Shown one piece after another: positions 4,140 to 36,716 of a stretch of DNA of 37,338 bases (the first letter of the stretch is position 1; each line of letters starts with the position of its first letter). Origin of the DNA: a virus; IMG/VR virus record IMGVR_UViG_3300019766_000015, positions 1 through 37,338 of that record; one strand, given 5' to 3'. Under the pieces are notes generated by a model. The model worked only from the letters and a program-made list of their open reading frames with translations, did no database searches and had not been told where the DNA came from. The position numbers and the translations under genes were made by a program.

Positions 4140-7100
4140 TCACGCTTTAGTTCTTCCTAATCTTGATCCTCCATCTTTTCGAGAATTCACGTAATGCTTT
4201 TCGTTGCCGTATCTATCCTTATGGATAAACGCGATTAGTTCATGCCCCATTTTTGCGGTATCGTTTTCTGGAAAAACGATTGATTTTATAGCTTTCTCAA
4301 TTCTTTCATTGCTATCATTTACAGCATCCAACTTTTTAATCATTCGATCATCGTTGAAATGATACTGCTTTATCTGAGGTGTTTGTAAGGCTTGCTGAAC
4401 CGAAAGCTGATTTATCATTTCGGGAGTTAACCCTTCACCATTTTCAACCGGCGCATACTTTGTTACCAAATCAACAACCGACTCGTTACTCATTCCTTTC
4501 AACTTCTTATTCCCTTCTGCGTTGATAACACGCTCGTTCGCATGCGTAACACCTGTAACTGCCCCGTACTGATCGCTAAACATTCCTACGCTACCTGTAT
4601 CTTCCGCTCCATGGAAAAACTTTGGTAAAGAACCGAGTATCAATTGCAAAGCTCCCGCAGACAAAGAGGCTTCTCCTAATGCTTGAGGAACTGTTTTTCC
4701 TTCTCCTAAAGCATTATTAAAAGCCAAAATTGCAGAAGTTGCGAATTCAACGGCTTGCTTTTGCTTTTCTAAACGTATCTTTTCAGCGTTGGCCGCTTGA
4801 ATTTTTTCTTCCTGCAGAGCGATTGATTGATCGTTTTCAAGAATACCCCTTTCGGCATTTGCTTGAATTTCATCCTTCAATCTTTTATCAGCTTCAGCAA
4901 CTCTTTCTGTCGCTTCAATCTGCTTTTCATTAAACGCTTCGTAAGCTTCCAGCCCTGCTTTTATCCACTTATCTCTATTATCTGCCCTTTCCTTTAGTTG
5001 CTGTTTCTCTCTTTCAATCCTTTCCTCTTCAAGTCGATCAAGCTCTTCTTGTGCTGCTCTCTCCGCTTCAATTCTACGTGAGTCGTAATCTTCTTGTGCA
5101 AGCTCAATTTCTTTTAAGCCATCCTTCTTTTTCTGAACAATATCATTTTCTAGTTTTTGCAGTTCGATATTTCTTCTCGTTTCTGCAAGCTTGAATCTTT
5201 CTTGAACTTCCTCTCTACTCCCTCCTAGATCAACAGCCGCCTGAATCTCCTCTTCGTATTGCCGCTCAATCATCTCCTGTCTTAATTTATCTTCTTTATC
5301 GATGTAAGACATGTATGCGTCTGTTCTGATCTCTCCTTTTTTATTCGCTAAATCGACCGCACTTTGAAGTTCAGATTCTTGAGATTTCTCGATACCTTCA
5401 AGTAGGCTGTCATCAATCAATTCCTGACGTTCTTTTTCTATGTCGGAAACACTTTTTAATTGATCGGCTAAATCCTTATATGATTTAGCGGCTTTTTTAG
5501 CCTCTTTACCTCCGTTTGCTGTTGATTTATTTGTTTCGTTTTGCTCGATTGACAATTCAAATGACGCGTCCTTTGCATCATCAAGAGCCTTAGAATATTG
5601 CGGTAGCTGAGTGTTGACCCCTTTTATATTAGCCTCTAATTGGGCTACTCCGTCATAGACAGATTCTGCACTAATATTGCCTAGGAAATTCTCTTGAAAA
5701 ACACCCAATCTTTTTGTTATCTCTTCAAACTCTTTCAGTTGATCCGTTCTCGGTAAAGCTTGTCCATTTGTAACTTTTATCTTTTCTAGAAATGCTATCT
5801 GCTCTTTGTACACTCTTCTTCTAGATAAAGCTTGTTCGATTTCTTTTTGAAAATCTTCTTCTTTGGCTTTTGAAGAAGATTTTAATATTGCATCAAATTG
5901 CTTTTGTGTTATCTCTTCTTTTGAAAGAGCTAAACGTGCATCGTCAATAACTTTCTTTCTTCTTTTTTCAATGCTCTCAATTCTGGAGATAGCCTTTTCG
6001 TTACCGATTTCAATTTGCTTATCAAGCCTAGCCAAATCCTCACGAGCTTGAGCTGCACCTGAAGCCATGTCCCAAAAAGCAGAAGCCATTTCAAGAACGA
6101 GTTCGATAGCTACAGAAAAACCAATTCCCTTTAAAGCTTTTCCAATATTCTTTAATCCAGAAATTGCACCTTTCCCTCCTTTAGTCATTTCCTTAAATCC
6201 AGAAACCACCTTTTTTAGACTTTTACCAAACTTCCCGTTTAGAGCATTTAGAACCTTTATTCTAGTCTGATAAATAACAAAGAAAGTAAGTAGTTTTCCA
6301 CCTACAGAAACAATGGTACCAAGATTTTCCGCAAGGAACTTTAAGGCGTTTTTCAGTCTCAAAGTCACTCCTGCGGACTTGTCAAATTCGATGATGTACT
6401 CTTGAAACTTCTTCGTTGCTTTCGAAAAAGTAGCGGAAAGCGTGTCGTTTTTCGTGTTAAACTCCTCTGTAATGGAAAGATTATCATCTATTGCTTTAGC
6501 GTTAATCTCCTGTAATTCGGTAAGGCGTTCAGTTTTATTTGTAAGTAATCCAACGATCGATGTCGCTCTTGCGCTTTCAACACCGTAAGATTCGAGTATT
6601 TTTGTAAGGTTAAAAAGCCCCTTTTCATTGTTTTTCGCTCCACTAGCAACAAGTTTTAAGGCTTCAATAGGCGCTTCTTCTGCTATCTTCTTGAACTCTT
6701 CAGGTGTTTTTCCAGCAATGGAAGAGAACTTTTCAAAGTTATTCGCTAAAGAAGGAAGTAGTTTGTTTAACGTTGTAGAAGCAACTTCGATAGATTGACC
6801 TCCCTCGTCAAAGAACGCTCCCAAAGCTTGAACATCAGAAAGCTTTAAAACTTCGGAGAACCCAGCCATTCTATTTGTAAAATCAAGTATTGCGGGTGCT
6901 CCCGCTTTACTTTCAGCGGAAAGAGTGTTTATACCAGAACCCACCTTTTCAATCGCTTCAGCAATACCAAATTCCGCTTCTAAACCAAAGTTTGACGCGA
7001 TTTTCCCAAGATTCGTAGATATCTCATCCGCTGAACCTTCCAAGTCATCACCTAACGCAACGAATACCTTATCGGCCGCCTCTGCAAATCCTTTTAAATT

Positions 7101-17217: not shown

Positions 17218-18720
17218 TTACGAATGTGAAGCGTCTCCTGGGTTGAATTGATGCGAGATGTGTCCGTACTTTGTCGCGTCCCAAAAGTGGTTGAAATCGT
17301 CAATCGGCTGATTTATAGGCATGCCGTTAACTTCTTTCCAGATGTAGTTTTGCTGCTCTGTAGACACCTCTTTATGAAGATGATTCTGAACGATGTGTAT
17401 CTTCTTTCGCTTCATTGAAGTAAGCCAATACACGTTATTTTGTGTTTTCGACACCTTTGAGATATCCCACCCCATGTCATAAAGCTCAAGGACCATTTGA
17501 ACTGCTCCATGCTTTTCACTCATGTACTTATCAGAACTGTCCGCGATATTTGGAACCAAAGGATCAACACCAACGGCAATCATCGCAGCGTCTAGCTCTG
17601 AAGCTGTCGGAATAGGTTTGTAAAGCAATGGTTCAACGTAGATGTTACCTTCAAAAGCAAACGCATCATTTCCATCATCATCAATGTACGGAGTGTTTGG
17701 AATATCATCTTCCGCATATCGGTTAACAACACATGGATCGTGCGTAAATCCAAAATCTGTGCAATAAGTGTGGTCTACATGCCATGGGAATTCGGTTATC
17801 CAGGTTACGTTCGGGAAAATTACACCCTTCATCGCTCCTCTAATACCTAAACCGTAACATTTCCAGTTAAAAACGTCCGCTGTTCCTTGATCTACATTTC
17901 TTTGATGTGGTGGTGGTTGATTTCCGTCGCTAACTTCTTTACCATTGAATAAGATCGACCCTTCAGGTGTTACAACATAAGAGCCAGGCTCCCAAGGCTC
18001 GTAAGAAAGTATTTTCCGCTTTTCGTTGGTGGAAACAAATGGATTATCTAGGAATGTTGTTCGTAAGAAAGCGACATCATCTCGTTTTATTACTGAGGAG
18101 AACACCCAGTGTTGAGTAAATGACGGGTTGTAATCCCCCCAAAACATGATTCGGCAACGTTGTTCCAGTTGGTTGAAAACCTCTTGGTTTATGGTCATCA
18201 TTTCGTTGAAGAAGACATAATCAGATCCAGCTCCGTGTGCTTTTCCAATCTTATCACACCCCATAAATGTAATCGTTGTCTTTCCTATCTTGAATGATTT
18301 GACTTCTTTTGCTCGATGAAAAGGATTGTCGAGCTCGTAATGATCTAATCGACGCTTAAAATCATCATATAGAGTGTCTTTAAATTCCGTGTATGTCTCA
18401 CGAACGATAATTATTTTACATCCAAATTCAGCATGCTTATGAATGGCTAAGTAAATGATAAAATCAATTCCCGACCATGTTTTTCCGCTTCGAGAACTTC
18501 CTTCCAGAACAACACCTCCAACACCGTAGACGCGCTGAAGCTTTCCATCTTCATCAACCTCATAATTTTGCTCGGCTAATGATTCTGCTAAAAGGCTGTA
18601 GTTTTTATTCTTCCCTTCTCTGAAATCAAGCAACGACAATCTACGCTGATAGATCTCCTCCTCATGCTCCAATTCAAGCAACTCAACAAGCTCTTGATCC
18701 GATAAAAGTTCATAATTCAT
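17218..18720 (-). CDS. terL: Terminase large subunit, 500 aa
   Basis: ATP-driven DNA packaging motor with a headful or cos nuclease. Walker A is GSSRSGKT at 74-81, Walker B is DYVFFNE at 167-173, and a WGDYNP coupling segment is at 194-199. The C-terminal RNase H-like nuclease shows D322 (CTDFGFTHDP), an Asp at 394 or 397 (NIADSSDK), and D474/D481 (DDFNHFWDATKYG). This layout fits the terminase_3/PBSX-type family. A TTG at 18732 extends the frame by four residues, but the ATG at 18720 (MNYELLSDQE) is preferred. It is convergent with the 98-aa plus-strand gene. Confidence 0.95.
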   Translation of the reverse strand: MNYELLSDQELVELLELEHEEEIYQRRLSLLDFREGKNKNYSLLAESLAEQNYEVDEDGKLQRVYGVGGVVLEGSSRSGKTWSGIDFIIYLAIHKHAEFGCKIIIVRETYTEFKDTLYDDFKRRLDHYELDNPFHRAKEVKSFKIGKTTITFMGCDKIGKAHGAGSDYVFFNEMMTINQEVFNQLEQRCRIMFWGDYNPSFTQHWVFSSVIKRDDVAFLRTTFLDNPFVSTNEKRKILSYEPWEPGSYVVTPEGSILFNGKEVSDGNQPPPHQRNVDQGTADVFNWKCYGLGIRGAMKGVIFPNVTWITEFPWHVDHTYCTDFGFTHDPCVVNRYAEDDIPNTPYIDDDGNDAFAFEGNIYVEPLLYKPIPTASELDAAMIAVGVDPLVPNIADSSDKYMSEKHGAVQMVLELYDMGWDISKVSKTQNNVYWLTSMKRKKIHIVQNHLHKEVSTEQQNYIWKEVNGMPINQPIDDFNHFWDATKYGHISHQFNPGDASHS

Positions 18721-18820
18721 ACAGAAGCGCAAAATAAATTGTACATTTACTTCACGTTTTTGTAATCAATAAGTGAGTTTATGATGAAAAAAAACAACTA
18801 ATACCCGCCAAAGTATTTTA

Positions 18821-21879: not shown

Positions 21880-23097
21880 TTATGCGTTTTTCATTATTTT
21901 GATTAATTTCTCAACGATCAGTTCAAGTACTCTTACAGTGATCGAGTTACCAGCTTGTTTGTATAATTGTGAATCACTTACACCAGCTTTACGCGCTTTT
22001 TGTACGTGCTTATCTGGAAAGTCTTGTAAACGATGACATTCTAACGGAGTTAATTTTCTGATTGTTTTACCGTTTAAAACGGAAGGTCTTCCGCATTCAG
22101 TGTCCATAGTTGGCGCGATTCCTTCAGAGTCAAAAACTCGATTCTGTTTGTATGGCTGCTTTCCTCCACTTTCCTTTGATGGGTTTATCTGCATTACCTT
22201 GATACCCTCTCCTTTGTTAGTAGATAATGTGGGACTTATTCCTTCTGAATCAAACACATTTCCGTTCATGTCATTTCCAGAAGGGTTCGAATTACCCATA
22301 ACCTTGATCATATCAAAGGAGTGTTTAGCAGAAAGACTGCCGCCGCCGCCTACACGAATTGTTTTTGAAACATCGCCAGGGATTAGATGATCTGTATCAA
22401 CATTGTTTTTGATTAATTGGTTAATGGCCTGATTACTTAAAAAATACTTTTCATCAACTTCAGGTTCCAGAATGTCTTTTAACCTCTTCGTCAATAGTTC
22501 CTCTTTTGGCCAAGTGAATTGATTATCTTCATCATCCCTAATTCCAAGAATGAAAACACGCTCTCTATTTTGGGGGACTCCGTGTTTTTTTGAGTTTAAG
22601 ACTTTCCAGTAAATGTGATAAGGAACTGCTTTTTCATCGGCAAAAATAACCGGCACACCATTAACTGATTTTCCTCCAAGCATATTACACCATTCTTGAA
22701 AGGTTTTTCCTGAATCATCAGAAAGGAGGCCTTTAACGTTTTCGAAAATAAAGAACCGGGGTTTATTTTTCTGGATAAACTCATGCGAATTGAAGAACAA
22801 TATACCGCGTTCATCTTCTTTGCCCTTTCTATTCCCTGCAATCGAGAATGCTTGACAAGGCGGTGAGGTCATATAAATGTCCAAAGGATCTTTTGGGATT
22901 TCTCTTTCATAAACATCTTTCGGGTAATATGAAGGTTCTCCGTGATTTGCTATGTATGAAGTTCTGGCAAACTTATCCCAATCACACGCAAATATTCTTT
23001 CGTGTTCAGTATTTTCTATTTTGGGAACAACTCTTTCAATTGCGTAATCGAACGCCCCAACTCCGCTAAAGTCTGATCCTGTTTTAATTGTATTCAT
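21880..23097 (-). CDS. C5-cytosine DNA methyltransferase, 405 aa
   Basis: Transfers a methyl group from S-adenosylmethionine to C5 of cytosine in a specific DNA sequence. The conserved motifs are in order: SAM-binding FSGVGAFDYAI (10-20), catalytic SPPCQAFS with C81, FIFENVKGLL with E119 (117-125), QNRERVFILGIR (176-187), then the target-recognition region, LTPLECHRLQDFP (349-361) and QAGNSITV (381-388). All catalytic residues are present, so it should be active. The recognition region contains a repeated VFDSEGI(S/A)PT segment at 281-290 and 321-330. GTG at 23100 is an alternative start. A partner restriction enzyme is not obvious; protection from host restriction is likely. Confidence 0.93.
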   Translation of the reverse strand: MNTIKTGSDFSGVGAFDYAIERVVPKIENTEHERIFACDWDKFARTSYIANHGEPSYYPKDVYEREIPKDPLDIYMTSPPCQAFSIAGNRKGKEDERGILFFNSHEFIQKNKPRFFIFENVKGLLSDDSGKTFQEWCNMLGGKSVNGVPVIFADEKAVPYHIYWKVLNSKKHGVPQNRERVFILGIRDDEDNQFTWPKEELLTKRLKDILEPEVDEKYFLSNQAINQLIKNNVDTDHLIPGDVSKTIRVGGGGSLSAKHSFDMIKVMGNSNPSGNDMNGNVFDSEGISPTLSTNKGEGIKVMQINPSKESGGKQPYKQNRVFDSEGIAPTMDTECGRPSVLNGKTIRKLTPLECHRLQDFPDKHVQKARKAGVSDSQLYKQAGNSITVRVLELIVEKLIKIMKNA

Positions 23098-23116
23098 CAC
23101 ACTATCTTTTGACTGG

Positions 23117-23338
23117 TTAGTTCATTTTTATCTTCATGTACGCTTTAAGCTCTTCACTTTCCGTACTAATCACTCTTCCATTTATGACGGCATCTCTTCT
23201 CCTGGATAACATCGCTATCCTTTCGGCTTCAATCCAATCTTTCGCGAAAAGATTTTCCCCGAAGAGAACACCTCTTTTTAAATAGTACATATCGAATTTA
23301 AAGAGGGTAATTGCTGTGTTATTTGCGCTATCGTCCAT
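23117..23338 (-). CDS. Small protein between nuclease and methyltransferase, 73 aa
   Basis: A 73-residue protein starting MDDSANNTAI, with an ATG that overlaps the end of the VRR-NUC gene by 11 nt (ATGGACGATAG). A longer reading from 23386 exists but lies wholly inside the nuclease gene. The sequence is helix-rich, with a basic ERIAMLSRRRDAVINGR segment. It ends 20 nt before the methyltransferase start. The function is unknown; the coupling suggests it works with the nuclease. Confidence 0.65.
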   Translation of the reverse strand: MDDSANNTAITLFKFDMYYLKRGVLFGENLFAKDWIEAERIAMLSRRRDAVINGRVISTESEELKAYMKIKMN

Positions 23339-23711
23339 CCATATATTTTTTAATGCATTCAATCGCTTCCTTAACGCCTGTTGCAAAAGTCGCGTAGTAA
23401 CCTAATTTATTTAGATCATCGATTGTTTTTTGCTGTCCCTCTAAATGCTCATCCTTGAGTAATTCGCCATTTTTCTTGAATGGAGTTTTCGCCTTCAGCT
23501 CAATAAACAACCCGTGATACTTCCCTTTAGGTTTGAAAATGATCAAATCTGGCGTTTTAAATCCGTCTTTTTGAATTGCTTTATTCCTTCCTGCTTGAGT
23601 CTTTGTGAGCTTCAAGTTGGCGACCGTATCGCTCATAAAAAGAACGTGTGGATGTTTCAATTTCAAATAAATGCAAACGGACTTTTGTATTCTGTATTCA
23701 ACGTGATTCAT
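23328..23711 (-). CDS. VRR-NUC family nuclease, 127 aa
   Basis: A small PD-(D/E)XK-fold nuclease. Motifs: TPDLIIF with D55, LFIELKAKTP with E71 and K73, then QQKTIDDLNKLGYYATFATG with Q93/Q94 and a closing Gly, which is the usual VRR-NUC order. Family members cut branched DNA such as flaps or Holliday junctions, and single-domain phage versions of 100-130 aa are common. An ATG at 23753 would add 14 residues but lies within a terminator hairpin, so the ATG at 23711 (MNHVEYRIQK) is preferred. It is the first gene after the terminator, so its own promoter or read-through is needed. Confidence 0.85.
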   Translation of the reverse strand: MNHVEYRIQKSVCIYLKLKHPHVLFMSDTVANLKLTKTQAGRNKAIQKDGFKTPDLIIFKPKGKYHGLFIELKAKTPFKKNGELLKDEHLEGQQKTIDDLNKLGYYATFATGVKEAIECIKKYMDGR

Positions 23712-23736
23712 TCTCTTTTTCTCTATATCGTTAACC

Positions 23737-23775
23737 AAAAAAAGCATCTCCATGCTGAGAAGATGCTTTTTTTTT
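23737..23775 (-). terminator. Intrinsic terminator of the RNA unit
   Basis: On the minus strand the stem AAGCATCT/AGATGCTT is extended by A-T pairs to about 13 bp, has an 11-nt loop and ends in T7. It lies between the tRNA-like region and the VRR-NUC gene and works in either direction by sequence. Confidence 0.8.
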
Positions 23776-25399: not shown

Positions 25400-26181
25400 A
25401 ATTTTACTCCTCGTTTAATCGCTTCGTTCACGACAATTACCGACACTCTACACCTCCATTCGTAAACAGAGAAAGACAAGCCTAGAAGCTCCTTTGAAAC
25501 CGCTCCTAAACCTTTCTTTTGGGCTTCCAGCTCTGTTTTTTGTTGACTCATCCGTTCTTTTTCTTGGTTTTTAAAATCAACCAACTCTTCTGTTGTAAAG
25601 GATGGCTTTAAAGCAAAATACAAGGCGTTTGCATTGAATTTATCGCCTAAAAAAGTTGTTTTTGAGTTGTTAAACATCTCAACAGATTGATTAAAAAACA
25701 CCTTTTTTCTTCTTTCTGATTCCTCAATAGATTCTTGAATTTTCAAGACATCTTCTTCCCTTTTTAAGGCGATGGCTATTTTATTCCGATGAGCAACGTA
25801 AGCGTTGAATATTGTCTGAAAATAAAGCGGGGAGAAATTTCCAAAAGGATTTAACTCATCTTTCCCGGATCCAACTTTGAAATCTCCAGCAATAGCCATT
25901 TCAAAAGCCATTTTTATTTCATTTGGAGTGTAGTTTCCAAGCCTTCTTTTGATAAAATCAATCAAAACTGCCGTTTGTGCCTCGTCAGGAAACTGTTCCT
26001 GCCTTAGACCTACAAGAACGAAACAGTATCTCAACGATTGAATTATCGCTTCATTGCTAGGTGTATTTCGGATCTTGGCAACCGAATTAATCTCACTCCT
26101 AACTCGCTGAACTACCCCAATTGGAAAGTTTGTCGCTAAATCCTTGGTTTGTTTTTTTACCTGTATTCCATTTTTGTTCAT
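25396..26181 (-). CDS. Probable replication accessory/helicase-loader-like protein, 261 aa
   Basis: The region around residues 65-130 contains VLIDFIKRRLGNYTPNEIKM followed by AFEMAIAGDF and FSPLYFQTIFNAYVAHR. That pattern is frequent in phage proteins encoded directly after a replication initiator, the position of lambda P. The middle is a Lys/Glu-rich coiled coil. The ATG lies 83 nt inside the upstream initiator gene, an unusually long overlap; no later ATG precedes the conserved part. It may load the host DnaB-type helicase, as no helicase gene is visible here. The function is inferred. Confidence 0.65.
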   Translation of the reverse strand: MNKNGIQVKKQTKDLATNFPIGVVQRVRSEINSVAKIRNTPSNEAIIQSLRYCFVLVGLRQEQFPDEAQTAVLIDFIKRRLGNYTPNEIKMAFEMAIAGDFKVGSGKDELNPFGNFSPLYFQTIFNAYVAHRNKIAIALKREEDVLKIQESIEESERRKKVFFNQSVEMFNNSKTTFLGDKFNANALYFALKPSFTTEELVDFKNQEKERMSQQKTELEAQKKGLGAVSKELLGLSFSVYEWRCRVSVIVVNEAIKRGVKL

Positions 26182-26812
26182 TACGCTTCCATGTTGATAA
26201 TCGTGCTTTCACACCAAATGTCTTTTCTTTCTCGAATCGCATCTTACGATCTCGATCACCGTGTTCAGTCCAATGCCTTCCAAAGTCTCGAATCATCTCC
26301 TTTGGAAATTCAGGATGAAAATCATTTAGGGAGAGAAGGAAGATTTTCTTCCGCTCCTCTATCTTCTTTTCCTTATTACCTTCTTTTCTTTCTTTCCCTT
26401 CTTTATTTTGTCGCGCTGCTGTCGCGCTGCTGTCGCACTGCTGTCGCGTCGGTGTACGCGCTGCTGTCTTACTTCTGTTTTTCGGGTCGTTGTAATCGTC
26501 GTATTTACAGAGGATTAACACCGTTTCACCCTGTCTTACTTCGCGTCTTATCGACCCTTCAGACGTTAGATTTTTCAAGAACTTTGAAACCTTTGAATTA
26601 CCCCATCCATAACGCTTCATGAGATATCTAACGCTTGCAATCTGTTCTCCACGCTCCAACTGGATCCACTTGTCGTTAACAATTTCTGTTCCCGCTTCAA
26701 ATCGTGCCGATACAATTAGATCGATCCACGCTTCCGCTGGAGAAAATGTCCTTGACTGCGTCCAAAGAGCGTTTTTGAAGAACTTTCTGCTTAACATTAA
26801 ATAACCTTCCAT
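26099..26812 (-). CDS. Replication initiator (O-like) with winged helix, 237 aa
   Basis: The N-terminal half (about 1-100) is a winged-helix DNA-binding domain of the replisome-organiser type: MLSRKFFKNALWTQSRTFSP, then DLIVSARFEA, and RGEQIASVRYLMKRYGWGNS with SKVSKFLKNLTSEGSI as recognition and wing. A Thr/Ala/Arg/Ser linker (about 115-135) is encoded by 11-bp DNA repeats. Then comes a Lys/Glu-rich stretch and a C-terminal helical domain ending near a Trp-rich patch (RLSTWKRNEQKWN). The start TAATG overlaps the 122-aa gene. The layout (DNA-binding domain, iterons in the linker, partner-binding C-terminus) closely parallels lambda O. Confidence 0.82.
   Translation of the reverse strand: MEGYLMLSRKFFKNALWTQSRTFSPAEAWIDLIVSARFEAGTEIVNDKWIQLERGEQIASVRYLMKRYGWGNSKVSKFLKNLTSEGSIRREVRQGETVLILCKYDDYNDPKNRSKTAARTPTRQQCDSSATAARQNKEGKERKEGNKEKKIEERKKIFLLSLNDFHPEFPKEMIRDFGRHWTEHGDRDRKMRFEKEKTFGVKARLSTWKRNEQKWNTGKKTNQGFSDKLSNWGSSAS
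26410..26468. repeat. 11-bp iterons inside the initiator gene (candidate origin)
   Basis: GCGCTGCTGTC occurs at 26413-26423, 26424-26434 and 26458-26468. GCACTGCTGTC is at 26435-26445, and a diverged unit is between them. Because 11 is not a multiple of 3, identical DNA units encode different residues, so the repetition is kept at DNA level. GC-rich iterons next to a purine-rich tract match the lambda O-type origin design. Confidence 0.65.
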
Positions 26813-27185: not shown

Positions 27186-27380
27186 CTATTTTTTAAATGG
27201 TTTGAAATAAACAATCCAAAGAGTAAGGATTGTGATAATCTCGATTCCGCAAGCTGTAAAAGCATACGCAGAAGAGGCTCCTAGCATAACTGCCGTAACC
27301 AGCCACACACAAGAAATTGCAAGCGCGCAGCAGATTAGATAAATAGCTACGGAGGCTTTTTGTTGTTTTTCTGTTAACAT
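27186..27380 (-). CDS. Small membrane protein, 64 aa
   Basis: Two hydrophobic segments (about 10-33 and 38-57) with a short polar loop, a Lys/Gln N-terminus (MLTEKQQKAS) and a Lys-rich C-terminus (YFKPFKK), so both ends probably face the cytoplasm. The ATG overlaps the stop of the nuclease-motor gene (GTATGTTAAC), showing coupling. A different frame of 87 residues crosses this region but is not supported. It may anchor the replication or recombination complex, which is speculation. Confidence 0.65.
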   Translation of the reverse strand: MLTEKQQKASVAIYLICCALAISCVWLVTAVMLGASSAYAFTACGIEIITILTLWIVYFKPFKK

Positions 27381-29518
27381 ACCTTCTCCTTTTTCCAGAA
27401 TGATTGAAAACGAACCGTTCCAGGGTATTCAGGTGAGCGAAACAACCCGTCTCCATTTCCTGCTAACGTTTCCGCACCACCTTCGTCGATCACAACTTTT
27501 GAATCAACTTCTTTTTGAACTCGGAAGCATATCTGAACAGGAAGGTTAACTTTTGCGTTACCATCAATTACTTTTGTGTCGGCTCTTTGAGTAGCAAGAA
27601 TTAATCGGAACCCTGAATCTCTACCCTTCTGAAGTAGAGATTGAATATTTTCTTCTAGGGACTTTAATTTGCCGGTTACTTTGTTCTGAAATTTCGGCTG
27701 CGGAAAAGGGTTATTTTTTGTTGCTTTATAGTAACCAACTTTAACATTCTCACGGATTTCAAGTTCCTTTCCAGTTCTTGACATCATGTAGGCGTCTGAG
27801 AACTCATCCATGACAACGAGGATAGTTTTCTTCTCTCGCTTTGATATCATGCCATTCATTAAATCAACAAGCTCCTTCGCTCGATTTTCGATATCAAGAA
27901 TATCATTGTAAACAGACACGTTTGAATTGCCGTTATATTCAAGGAATTCGAATTTCGGATCAAAAATCTCAATTTGATCAACCCCGGCAACTAGCGTGGA
28001 TTCAACCGACGATCTAATTGATACCGATTTTCCAGAGCCTGTCCCCCCGCATATAAGAACGTGTGGTGTTGATTGGTTGTTTAAATCCCAATAAATGCAC
28101 CTCCCGAAATTATCCATACCTATCGGAATCTTCATATCTTTTACCATAGATGCGTCCCAAAGAAGATCTTTCTCTCTTTTCTTTGAAGACTCTATTGCCA
28201 CGTAAGATTTTCCTTCATAAACGAATAGGTCGGGCATGATTCGTACGTTAGACACGTTTAACGCGTTGGCGATGTCCAGTTTTCGAGCGTGAACGCTCTG
28301 TATTTTTGTCCCTGCTGATAATTGCAGTAGGTAAGTATCTGAAGAATAGCCGTCAAATGTGTGAGCTACTTCGGAGATGATATTGAACGAACGCAAAACG
28401 TGTTCGATCTTTTCTTTCTTTGTCATGTTGGTGTTATTAAGGTCGTATTTGATAAATGAGTTTGCGTTTTCTTGAAAGTTTTTAATGATCTTTGGATCAA
28501 TAACAGTTGTATTGGAGTCTCTGACTTTCTTTAGTCTTTTTTCGATCATGTCCTTTTTTGACTCGTCGATGTCGAATTGGCCAATCTCTCCGATTTGTGT
28601 TTTACACCAGAATTCGTGCAGCTCTGCTTTGTCAACGAAATTGTCCGCTTCATTCATTAGATAGACATAATCCGGGTCAGAAACAGCCTCGATCATTCTC
28701 TTTAACGGCTCATACAAAAGAGCTTCATAAAGCTTTCGTGTATCATCGTCAAGAATAACAGCGTATGATTGAAGTTGAGCCTTATTCTTGTCTCTATTCT
28801 CAGAGTGTTTATTTTCTACAAATCGAACTTCATCTACTTTAATTCCTGTAGCCATTTCATAAAGCAGAGCGTAAGTAATTGCTTGTCTTCCAATGATTAA
28901 TTTCGCCTCTGCATCATCAGTGAATGATGATTTTGATTTATGGTCAATAATGACAACTCTATCATCGTGCGTCTGAATAGGTAAATCAATAACTCCACTA
29001 CAAGGAAGAGGTATGTCTACCCCATTCACAGTGATGAATTCTTTTAATTTCAACTCAACCCCCAGAACGCGCTTGATGTCATCTTCATAAAGTGCCTTTT
29101 CCTTGTAGAAATTAGACAGAAGCTTTGTTACTACTTTTGTCGCTTTCAACTTACACTCTTGAATGGAAGGCGTAGTTTTTTGAATTTTCCAAACATTCGC
29201 ATGCACTTCGTCAATGTATGTGAATGCGATCTTTTCCAATTCTGGAAGACTTACAATAGCTCCATCTTGAAAACCTTTAAAATAAACTTCCAATGCTTCA
29301 TGGTATGCACTCCCTGCAATTGTAGTGGCTGAATACTTAGATTTCGTGAGGTATATGTACCGCATTTCGAAAGCTTTTTCATTTCTAGCGAAAGACGATG
29401 TTTTCGAATAGCTCCAGGAGTTGATTAAGAAATTACTGAACAACTCCTCTTTTTCATCAACATTCATAGATTGATAAAAGTGCTCAGGCTTTTCAATTAT
29501 TGTTAATCCTTCAATCAT
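27374..29518 (-). CDS. RecB-like nuclease fused to FtsK/SpoIIIE-type DNA motor, 714 aa
   Basis: Residues 1-~310 are a RecB/Cas4-like PD-(D/E)XK nuclease: GSAYHEALE with H73 and E74, GVIDL with D178, IIDHKS with D192 and K194, then QAITYALLYE with Q212/Y216. Residues ~365-460 resemble the FtsK alpha domain, including YLLQLSAGTKI and GKSYVAIESSKKRE. Residues ~460-714 are the FtsK motor: Walker A GGTGSGKS (491-498), Walker B ILVVMDE (566-572), LATQR (641-645) and the FtsK signature VDSKVVIDEGGAETL (671-685). The DNA-guiding gamma domain is absent. It starts in an ATGA overlap with recT. A processive resecting exonuclease for RecT is inferred. Confidence 0.9.
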   Translation of the reverse strand: MIEGLTIIEKPEHFYQSMNVDEKEELFSNFLINSWSYSKTSSFARNEKAFEMRYIYLTKSKYSATTIAGSAYHEALEVYFKGFQDGAIVSLPELEKIAFTYIDEVHANVWKIQKTTPSIQECKLKATKVVTKLLSNFYKEKALYEDDIKRVLGVELKLKEFITVNGVDIPLPCSGVIDLPIQTHDDRVVIIDHKSKSSFTDDAEAKLIIGRQAITYALLYEMATGIKVDEVRFVENKHSENRDKNKAQLQSYAVILDDDTRKLYEALLYEPLKRMIEAVSDPDYVYLMNEADNFVDKAELHEFWCKTQIGEIGQFDIDESKKDMIEKRLKKVRDSNTTVIDPKIIKNFQENANSFIKYDLNNTNMTKKEKIEHVLRSFNIISEVAHTFDGYSSDTYLLQLSAGTKIQSVHARKLDIANALNVSNVRIMPDLFVYEGKSYVAIESSKKREKDLLWDASMVKDMKIPIGMDNFGRCIYWDLNNQSTPHVLICGGTGSGKSVSIRSSVESTLVAGVDQIEIFDPKFEFLEYNGNSNVSVYNDILDIENRAKELVDLMNGMISKREKKTILVVMDEFSDAYMMSRTGKELEIRENVKVGYYKATKNNPFPQPKFQNKVTGKLKSLEENIQSLLQKGRDSGFRLILATQRADTKVIDGNAKVNLPVQICFRVQKEVDSKVVIDEGGAETLAGNGDGLFRSPEYPGTVRFQSFWKKEKVC

Positions 29519-30357
29519 GGCATCTGAATTTTAGCCTGTCCACCTTTCGAAGCTTTATTTTCCTTCATCGCTTCTTTCTTTTCTTCAATAACCTCTTCAA
29601 GAGGTACGTCTTCCGCTTCTGGATTATCCGGATATTCGATATTTTCCGTTTTGGAATCATTTATCACACCTTGATCCGCATTTATTGCTTTCTGCATCTC
29701 GATAGACAACGGGGCTTCACCACTGTTTAAACAAAGTTTCGTTACCGTTTTTGACGCCATACCGTCAAAATTCACGCTCCATTGTCCGTATTTATGGCTG
29801 TAAGTTTTCGAATACTTTTCAGCATGCTCCCTGATTTGCTCCACTGTCATAAAGAAAGTCTTCTCAAAGCCATTAATCAGTTCAAAGCGACACGCATAAC
29901 CAACAACAGTGTTTGATTTTTTTGATTTCCAATCGAATTTAAAGCCAAGAAAACTGTCATCCTCAACGTACTGACCTTCAAACACCGTTTTTGTATCTAA
30001 TGCTTTAAACTGACCTGATCGAATTGCAAGCTGTTTTAATCCCTTGTACCCTAGAATGAATTGAGCCATCACTTTATAGCTCCCGTCTTTTTGCTTGTTG
30101 TTAAAAGGAACTATATATGCATGTCCGAAAGATGGGTTTAAATTCAAATCCAGAAGTGTTGCTGTTATCGCTGCGTTTAGTACACTTGGACTGTCTGCAT
30201 TCTTCAGCATCTCATTTTGACTAACCACTTGTGTTAGGTTGGTAGCAAATCCCGTTGATTTGGTTCCAAGAACTTCTTTGATAAATTTTTGAACCGTTTC
30301 TTTTCCGATGTAGTCTTTTAATTTAAGCTCTTCCTTTTTTACTATTGAATTACTCAT
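29515..30357 (-). CDS. recT: RecT single-strand annealing recombinase, 280 aa
   Basis: The RecT core is clear: residues 55-105 with NAAITATLLDLNLNPSFGHA, YIVPFNN and AQFILGYKGLKQLAIRSGQ, then a central beta region (NTVVGYACRFELINGFEKTF) and WSVNFDGMASKTVTKLC. The tail after ~235 is acidic and Lys-rich, probably disordered and used for SSB or oligomer contacts. RecT anneals complementary strands made by a partner exonuclease. Here the partner gene follows with a stop-start overlap. It acts in phage recombination and replication. Confidence 0.95.
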   Translation of the reverse strand: MSNSIVKKEELKLKDYIGKETVQKFIKEVLGTKSTGFATNLTQVVSQNEMLKNADSPSVLNAAITATLLDLNLNPSFGHAYIVPFNNKQKDGSYKVMAQFILGYKGLKQLAIRSGQFKALDTKTVFEGQYVEDDSFLGFKFDWKSKKSNTVVGYACRFELINGFEKTFFMTVEQIREHAEKYSKTYSHKYGQWSVNFDGMASKTVTKLCLNSGEAPLSIEMQKAINADQGVINDSKTENIEYPDNPEAEDVPLEEVIEEKKEAMKENKASKGGQAKIQMP

Positions 30358-30387: not shown

Positions 30388-31248
30388 TTACTTATTTAGA
30401 TCCATTACGATTCCCTCGCAGTATTTTTCGCCATCCTTCATGATGTCAAATTTGTGGTACGGGTAGTTTGATGTAAATTTCCAAGGGTATTCTGCTACCC
30501 ATAAAATTAAGTCTCCAGAAACAGCGACTGCATCACCTACGGCAATCAAATGCTTTTCCTCAATTACGCCCTCAACCCATAAGGAGCTGGGCTTATCCGA
30601 ATCGATAGAATCTTCATCACCATAAACAATCAATAGATTATGCTCTTTGGCAAATTCACGATCTTCGTAAACTGTTTCGGAACGATATTCATTACCATTT
30701 AAAGCCATCGCCATTGCTTTTGCTTTACCGGAAGGTTGATCTTCTGTAACAGTTTCTTCGATATAAACCTCTGTGATTTCATCATTATCAACTTCCTCTA
30801 CCTCTTCTTGTTCAACATTCTCCGTATAAGGGAAAATTTCAACAATTGGAGAAACGATAACAGAAGGAACTTCAAAGTCAACCATTAACGTTGATAAACA
30901 CTCTTCAAGACGCTCATACGCTTGCTTCACTGAGTTTGCAGAAACCAACATTACTTGTGTCACTTTTCTTGCTTTTTCTGAATCAGAAGCAACACCTTGG
31001 TATTTGATTTTACATTTGTACCAAACATCGCTATCTTCATAATGAAAAATGTCGTGAATCTCAGTTCTTGTAATACCTACAACATTAAACTCTCCACGGA
31101 TAACCTGTCCTAGTTCTTCATAAATTCTAGTTTCGGCATCGCTATAATTCATTGCCGCTAATAAATACGGTTCTGAAACTCTCTTTAACGCTCCGTTATC
31201 AAGCTGCTTTGTGTACTTCACCTTTACTGTAAACCAATTGTTATTCAT
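30388..31248 (-). CDS. DUF4494-like protein with second C-terminal domain, 286 aa
   Basis: Residues 1-~140 follow the DUF4494 pattern known mainly from Bacteroidota and their phages: WFTVKVKYTKQLDNGALKRV, then YLLAAMNYSDAETRIYEEL and VIRGEFNVVGI. A Glu/Val-rich acidic linker (about 140-170) follows. The C-terminal ~110 residues resemble short stand-alone phage proteins with a NLLIVYGDEDS segment and end YPYHKFDIMKDGEKYCEGIV. No function is known for either half. It lies between small unknown genes and recT. Confidence 0.78.
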   Translation of the reverse strand: MNNNWFTVKVKYTKQLDNGALKRVSEPYLLAAMNYSDAETRIYEELGQVIRGEFNVVGITRTEIHDIFHYEDSDVWYKCKIKYQGVASDSEKARKVTQVMLVSANSVKQAYERLEECLSTLMVDFEVPSVIVSPIVEIFPYTENVEQEEVEEVDNDEITEVYIEETVTEDQPSGKAKAMAMALNGNEYRSETVYEDREFAKEHNLLIVYGDEDSIDSDKPSSLWVEGVIEEKHLIAVGDAVAVSGDLILWVAEYPWKFTSNYPYHKFDIMKDGEKYCEGIVMDLNK

Positions 31249-35907: not shown

Positions 35908-36693
35908 TTAAAAGTTTAATGTTTTTTGAGTCGAATCAACGACTGACTTTTTATTACTGATTACTGAGTTGTACCCATTTTCTATTGAATCAAATTCGAC
36001 AATGTAATTTGATTCAATTTCGAACACCTTTTTATCTGGAGTGTTTGAAGGAAGCTCTTTCAACACTTCAAATGTCCAATCACTCAAGGCGGTGGTTCTT
36101 AAATGCAAACCAAAAGGACTGGAAGAATGTTTTAAATGATTCCACCAACGAAAAAAAGGCGCATTCCTAGTCTTTCCGATGTAACATTTCCCTGTGCTTT
36201 TTTCCGTGCATTTGTAGATGTAATTTAAACTGTCTGATTTTACATGAAACTCATCGTCTGGAAGTTCTACATCCTTGTAATACTCCTTCTTATACTCCTC
36301 GAAACAATGACCGTCGTTATTACAAAACAACAAATCGATAAAAGGAGGCTTATTCGTATACCGTGGTCGAGAAACATACTTGTTTTCATGCACCTCTCCG
36401 CAATTGGCGCATGTCCAAGATCCGTTTTTTACCTGGTTCAATTCCCAGTTAAAAAGCTTTCTTATCACTACATAAAAGAATTGCGCATCATCTTTTGTTT
36501 CCCTCTGGTACACTTTTCCGTTTTGAAAGAATTGAGGGTGCTTTTCCAGTAAAAAACGCTTAACCTCTTCTTTATCTTCAGCTTCAATTATAGGCTCCTT
36601 TAACACTTCTGTAGTATCAAAGAAAAAGTTCTTTTCTATCAAAGATTTAACCACTCTAATTGAAGCGCTAAATAGTATCTTTTCCTTACTCAT
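35908..36693 (-). CDS. GIY-YIG nuclease with N-terminal zinc ribbon, 261 aa
   Basis: The GIY-YIG fold is at about 155-245: YIYK (158-161), CYIGKT (170-175), R182/H186 in FFRWWNHLKH, and E225/E227 in FEIESNYI. Upstream, C95-x-x-C98 (CANCGE) and C124/C130 form a likely zinc ribbon. Residues 1-85 are helical and may recognise DNA or a protein partner. A GTG one codon upstream of the ATG at 36693 is possible. Standalone GIY-YIG proteins include homing endonucleases and restriction or repair nucleases. The cargo-like location suggests an accessory or homing-related nuclease, but the specific role is open. Confidence 0.82.
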   Translation of the reverse strand: MSKEKILFSASIRVVKSLIEKNFFFDTTEVLKEPIIEAEDKEEVKRFLLEKHPQFFQNGKVYQRETKDDAQFFYVVIRKLFNWELNQVKNGSWTCANCGEVHENKYVSRPRYTNKPPFIDLLFCNNDGHCFEEYKKEYYKDVELPDDEFHVKSDSLNYIYKCTEKSTGKCYIGKTRNAPFFRWWNHLKHSSSPFGLHLRTTALSDWTFEVLKELPSNTPDKKVFEIESNYIVEFDSIENGYNSVISNKKSVVDSTQKTLNF

Positions 36694-36716
36694 CACTTAC
36701 TTTTTAGGTTCGTAAA
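36692..36716. repeat. 25-bp direct repeat, copy 1
   Basis: A 25-bp sequence identical to 37162-37186 covers the last codons and stop of the 154-aa gene (YEPKK*) and the bases just before the GIY-YIG start. The copies are 470 bp apart. Confidence 0.8.

Follow-up and report, generated by a model that had tools for sequence, protein, structure and literature searches.

A nuclease and an FtsK motor in one phage gene

The DNA analysed here, referred to as a whole as the window, is an IMG/VR virus record of 37,338 bases. Its minus strand carries, at positions 27374-29518, a single uninterrupted open reading frame for a protein of 714 amino acids, in which a nuclease and an FtsK-type motor are joined. 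A preliminary description of this DNA, which did not give the strand, had proposed such a chain, and the chain is real: Pfam and PHROGs agree with the single reading frame, PHROGs assigning its first half to exonucleases and its second half to FtsK/SpoIIIE-like proteins. The positions given there for the catalytic residues (H73, D178, D192, K194, QxxxY and both Walker motifs) also proved correct.

The N-terminal domain (aa 34-260, positions 28739-29419, minus strand) is a RecB/Cas4-type PD-(D/E)XK nuclease, recognised by Pfam PDDEXK_1 (1.4e-13), by residue conservation and by Foldseek. All motifs of this type (GxxxH, E, D, (D/E)xK and QxxxY) are present, in the order G69xxxH73, E155, D178, D192xK194 (D192-H-K194) and Q212xxxY216. 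Members of the Cas4/AddB/Dna2 subgroup bind an Fe-S cluster through four cysteines; no cysteine is found in the columns conserved to at least 95% in an alignment of 53 sequences, which places the nuclease of the fusion outside this subgroup.

The nuclease is followed, on the same strand, by an FtsK alpha domain (aa 362-443, 28190-28435; Pfam FtsK_alpha, 6e-9) and an FtsK motor domain (aa 461-705, 27404-28138). The latter is supported by a PDB profile match to the FtsK motor (2e-43), by Foldseek matches to 2iut and 6t8o and by Pfam FtsK_SpoIIIE over aa 461-554 (5.2e-8). Walker A (GGTGSGKS, aa 491-498, 28025-28048), Walker B (aa 567-572, 27803-27820, ending in D571-E572) and the C-terminal motor motifs are all in place, as expected of an FtsK/SpoIIIE protein. 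Two other parts of such proteins are missing: the N-terminal half is occupied by the nuclease and has no membrane segment, and the chain stops about 9 residues beyond the motor, so that the DNA-guiding gamma domain is absent, as had been stated before. An AlphaFold2 model built from the 53 sequences reached a mean pLDDT of 89. Its best PDB match in Foldseek was the FtsK motor, in the C-terminal half and with DNA-bound FtsK among the matches; further matches were to Dna2, ACE1 (Cas4 family) and AdnAB.

Directly upstream of the fusion lies a gene for a RecT annealase of 280 amino acids, ending in KIQMP (29515-30357, minus strand; Pfam RecT, 1.7e-35; phrog_148, 2.4e-61). Its stop codon overlaps the start codon of the fusion by 4 bases (ATGA), which confirms the coupling to RecT claimed earlier. 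Next upstream is a gene for a DUF4494 protein (30388-31248, minus strand; Pfam DUF4494, 7e-46), whose extra C-terminal part matches phrog_25176; blastp found no DUF4494 gene beside the fusions of the relatives described below. The replication module, also on the minus strand, further includes a DnaD-like helicase loader (26099-26812; phrog_2514, 4e-21), and a VRR-NUC or Holliday junction resolvase-like protein is encoded at 23328-23753 of the same strand (Pfam, 3.5e-5; phrog_5702, 2e-9). A terminase large subunit (17218-18732, minus strand; Pfam Terminase_3, 2e-14), a terminase small subunit and a portal protein are encoded as well, so the phage is predicted to have its own packaging motor in the form of the terminase large subunit. 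Other genes of the window include a C5 cytosine methyltransferase (21880-23100) and a weak match to GIY-YIG, under the curated cut-off, at 35908-36696.

The hosts are probably Bacteroidota, Bacteroides-like, judging from two similarities. DUF4494 matched only Bacteroides ihuae among 14 control genomes, and one contig that carries a relative of the fusion (L219) is related in part to Bacteroides phage BF1-TP2. The phage BF1-TP2 itself has an ERF-like annealase, which lacks the tip described below, and no fusion among the matches listed.

Relatives of the fusion and the exchange of their partners

With the window protein alone as query, the viral and genome collections scanned gave no full-length relative and one FtsK only. 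Relatives were reached by way of the RecT neighbour, which led to a first full-length relative with 53% identity, again with RecT nearby, and then by alignment-based scans (58 loci, later more). In this manner 78 distinct full-length relatives, 662-735 amino acids long in the alignment, were recovered, all of them from one metagenome-heavy virus collection, IMG/VR. None of 50,697 phage and 72,556 plasmid records matched over more than 80% of the fusion, and the nuclease half searched alone gave zero matches in the phage records. The phage and plasmid matches listed cover at most about half of the fusion, essentially a motor without its nuclease; FtsK/SpoIIIE-like phage proteins (phrog_1358, phrog_3551) are the closest sequence relatives of this half. 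No separate copy of the nuclease domain was detected in the loci of the relatives; a single match there ran into the end of its contig and is incomplete. Matches in H1, H2 and H4 were rejected as fusions, being cellular-type FtsK genes on fecal scaffolds.

Among 53 distinct aligned sequences, residues H73, E155, D178, D192, K194 and Q212 of the nuclease and K497, E572, Q644 and R645 of the motor are invariant, and Y216 is essentially so. In pairs of sequences free of synonymous saturation, dN/dS is about 0.05-0.10 in the nuclease and motor halves alike, by which measure both halves are under purifying selection. Because of these low values and the 78 distinct full-length relatives, the fusion has to be regarded as more than a chance product. 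In one relative (L050:2104-4213) it is split into two overlapping frames, as by a frameshift.

A partner in the annealase slot, directly upstream of the fusion, could be assigned for 76 of 79 fusions. Most partner genes adjoin or overlap the fusion gene, the overlap being mostly 4 or 1 bases. The arrangement is thus that of the 'SynExo' pairs, in which an exonuclease gene adjoins the gene of a single-strand annealing protein, with 31 of the 76 partners being counted as annealases by position only. RecT, the partner named in the preliminary description, holds for the window and is one of about ten partner families. Recognised annealases are RecT of phrog_148 (17), Sak4-like proteins (14; AAA_24, phrog_1366, with a weak match to Sak4), RecT-like proteins of phrog_561 (6), Rad52 (4), ERF (3) and a Bet-like protein (1). 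In the remaining 31 cases the same slot is held by phrog_3657, the commonest partner family (21), or by proteins that match no family (10). The last figure takes in a group that looked RecT-like by eye, since its scanned member matched no family.

These partners have been exchanged many times. On the tree of the 79 fusions, partner type requires at least 34 changes, compared with a theoretical minimum of 9 and an average of 47 for shuffled labels. Fusions 72-86% identical to each other can have partners from different families; the two in L009 and L053, for example, are 86% identical, and the first has RecT as its partner and the second a phrog_3657 protein. In L038 a probable HNH homing endonuclease gene, recognised by eye (6468-6995), lies between annealase and fusion.

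The C-terminal tip of the partner proteins

RecT of the window ends in Q-M-P followed by the stop codon (29515-29526, minus strand), and the unrelated partner annealases have this tip in common. Sak4-like partners end in KVELP, phrog_3657 proteins in KLDLP, ERF in KVSMP, Rad52 in KIIMP and the Bet-like protein in QIDLP, a form that can often be written as hydrophobic-[DEN]-[LM]-P-COOH. The ending [LM]P is found in 57 of the 76 partners, and 71 of them end in [LM][PLMA]. A general habit of these phages was rejected as explanation, as only 3 of 1037 other genes from the fusion loci end in [LM]P.

As a control, 240 loci were fetched for three of the families (RecT, phrog_3657 and Sak4-like). Where the fusion stands alongside, the [LM]P ending is found in 23 of 25 annealases, the two exceptions having LM; where the fusion is absent, the ending occurs in 0 of 183 (Fisher, 1e-28). 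In a further 29 loci, where the contig ends early, it was found in none. One seeming exception, in L027, was dismissed: its RecT gene (L027:6168-7013) contains a premature TAG, and the frame beyond it ends in GEEMP.

The tip might also be a by-product of the ATGA overlap, which constrains only the final base (A) of the last codon. This was rejected as well, because the tip is kept at gaps of -1, +1 and +2 and also where other genes intervene between annealase and fusion (L009, L038, L047 and L053; in the last three an HNH-like gene or several genes), and so cannot be an effect of the overlapping start. Tip and fusion are nevertheless separable, as RecT is tipless in L059 and L061, whose fusions make up the branch that diverges most.

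Proposed function of the fusion

In loci that lack the fusion, an exonuclease is a common neighbour of these annealases. A stand-alone enzyme of this kind (phrog_5715 and weaker RecE-like matches) is encoded in 125 of the 183 annealase loci without the fusion and in 0 of the 78 with it, for one exonuclease family searched within a few kb. From this difference the fusion appears to take the place of the exonuclease in a recombination system of two components. A predicted role in end resection is well founded, since it stands at the exonuclease position of other phages.

The domains and their conservation, the exchange of partners, the association of tip and fusion and the want of a stand-alone exonuclease nearby can all be read from the sequences. 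Building on them, we consider it quite probable that the fusion is a motor-driven end-resection nuclease served by interchangeable annealases, which would dock by their short C-terminal tag. As the resection subunit of a phage exonuclease and annealase system it would act as follows. Its FtsK-type motor subunits would, we infer, assemble into a ring around double-stranded DNA and, by hydrolysing ATP, pump the duplex toward their N-terminal side, that of the alpha domain, where the nuclease domains would degrade one strand, as NurA does with HerA; by analogy it would be the 5' strand that is removed. The annealase, whose gene lies directly upstream, would be held on the fusion itself by its last few residues, be loaded on the remaining, exposed strand and coat it. 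Such a contact between annealase and exonuclease, known from lambda, would here be cut down to a portable tip. With recognition confined to this tip, unrelated annealase families would become usable and could be swapped repeatedly by the phages. We lean towards the broader view that this is a plug-in recombination machine, in which the same tag of 2 to 4 residues lets the motorised nuclease accept unrelated annealases and is gained or kept at each swap.

The tip could instead bind a third protein present in these phages, for instance a sliding clamp or SSB, or some further protein of the phage. Clamp-binding motifs are likewise short hydrophobic peptides near protein termini. Many Sak4-like proteins from loci without the fusion (L263-L305) have acidic or F-terminal ends (DDDVF, DDEPMF, TPIEGF, GGVNVF) that resemble the C-terminal tip of SSB and are perhaps another docking tip, so annealases may make other contacts through their C-termini. 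Against a third protein stands the control above: annealases of the same families lack [LM]P in all 183 cases without the fusion, and such tracking of the fusion, their constant neighbour, would not be expected of a tag for a host clamp or SSB. A sliding-clamp motif in particular is thought unlikely, as its conserved Q is absent, K being the commonest residue at the corresponding position (28 of 70), and as the tip always lies at the very end of the chain. We therefore regard a target other than the fusion as unlikely.

The fusion might also be an exonuclease that works independently of ATP, with an FtsK part whose sole task would be to position the enzyme, on DNA or at replication forks, and which would not drive resection. 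Motorless stand-alone exonucleases do fill the same slot elsewhere. The lysine of Walker A, the glutamate of Walker B and the C-terminal motor motifs are nevertheless invariant, and strong purifying selection acts on the motor, which makes this explanation rather improbable.

Less probable still is a phage-borne nuclease for defence or superinfection exclusion, of the DndH/HerA type. The defence protein DndH does combine a REase domain with a C-terminal HerA/FtsK domain, and one of its clades has FtsK alpha (PMC10853773). PADLOC likewise matched the fusion to mad8 and SspH, but its strong matches are confined to the motor and it gave no match to DndH. The gene also lies in a replication module, start-coupled to annealases and at the position of the exonuclease of other phages. 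That the fusion is a motor for packaging or segregation, as the DNA-pumping FtsK-type ATPases and a terminase family listed by PHROGs among the weaker matches for the motor might suggest, is scarcely credible given the terminase subunits and portal of the window, the RecB/Cas4-type nuclease and the absence of gamma and membrane domains.

A motor-driven resection nuclease of this kind differs from each known system that it resembles. AdnAB, Dna2 and AddAB, too, resect ends with a RecB-type nuclease fused to a DNA motor; this motor is an SF1 helicase, whereas that of the fusion is an FtsK-type pump for double strands. In HerA-NurA, a motor ring of the HerA/FtsK class is likewise coupled to a nuclease, which is held by the N-terminal HAS barrels of HerA, and resection leaves 3' single strands (PMC9960219). 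HerA-NurA, however, consists of two cellular proteins without an attached annealase gene, and Pfam finds in the fusion FtsK alpha and PDDEXK_1 in place of a HAS barrel and a NurA nuclease. DndH shares with the fusion a nuclease of REase fold and a HerA/FtsK ATPase on one chain; unlike it, DndH has TRD and DAM domains, a type-II-like REase and no annealase partner. The fusion contains the nuclease and the FtsK module only, in a context of annealase and replication genes and outside any dndFGH operon. DndH is a precedent for such a nuclease and motor in one chain, so that in itself the fusion is less novel than the preliminary description had supposed. Its use with an annealase in a phage recombination system was found neither in the open-access literature nor in the databases searched. 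A single chain with a double-strand pump and nuclease domains would be a phage resection enzyme of a new type.

Closest in gene order are the SynExo pairs, lambda Red alpha/beta and RecE/RecT. Such pairs are the basis of recombineering. Their exonucleases are motorless and, unlike the fusion, do not stand beside about ten annealase families with one common C-terminal tip. In lambda, the C-terminal region of the annealase contacts the exonuclease (PMC5052646). Pairs tested so far work only with their own partner; components of Red and RecE/RecT cannot be mixed, and non-cognate pairs fail (PMC5052646). The interchangeable annealases and their common tip are a more surprising part of the present results than the bare fusion, and one tip on unrelated annealases was not described in the open-access literature or the databases searched. 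If the nuclease-motor does accept unrelated annealases via the tip, partner specificity would be a portable tag.

The great diversity of annealases makes new families of them difficult to recognise, and the tag would offer a test for such families from sequence alone. Should the plug-in reading be true, the tag would also mark as new families phrog_3657 and the proteins without family match in the same slot. No credible Pfam match, no significant fold match in the PDB and no match to the RecT profile was obtained for phrog_3657, which from its position is likely a new annealase family; the strands and helices predicted for it follow one another in an order that looks compatible with an annealase. 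In loci of this family (L151-L230) the phrog_3657 gene either precedes the fusion or, where the fusion is absent, has a stand-alone exonuclease nearby in 46 of 55 cases.
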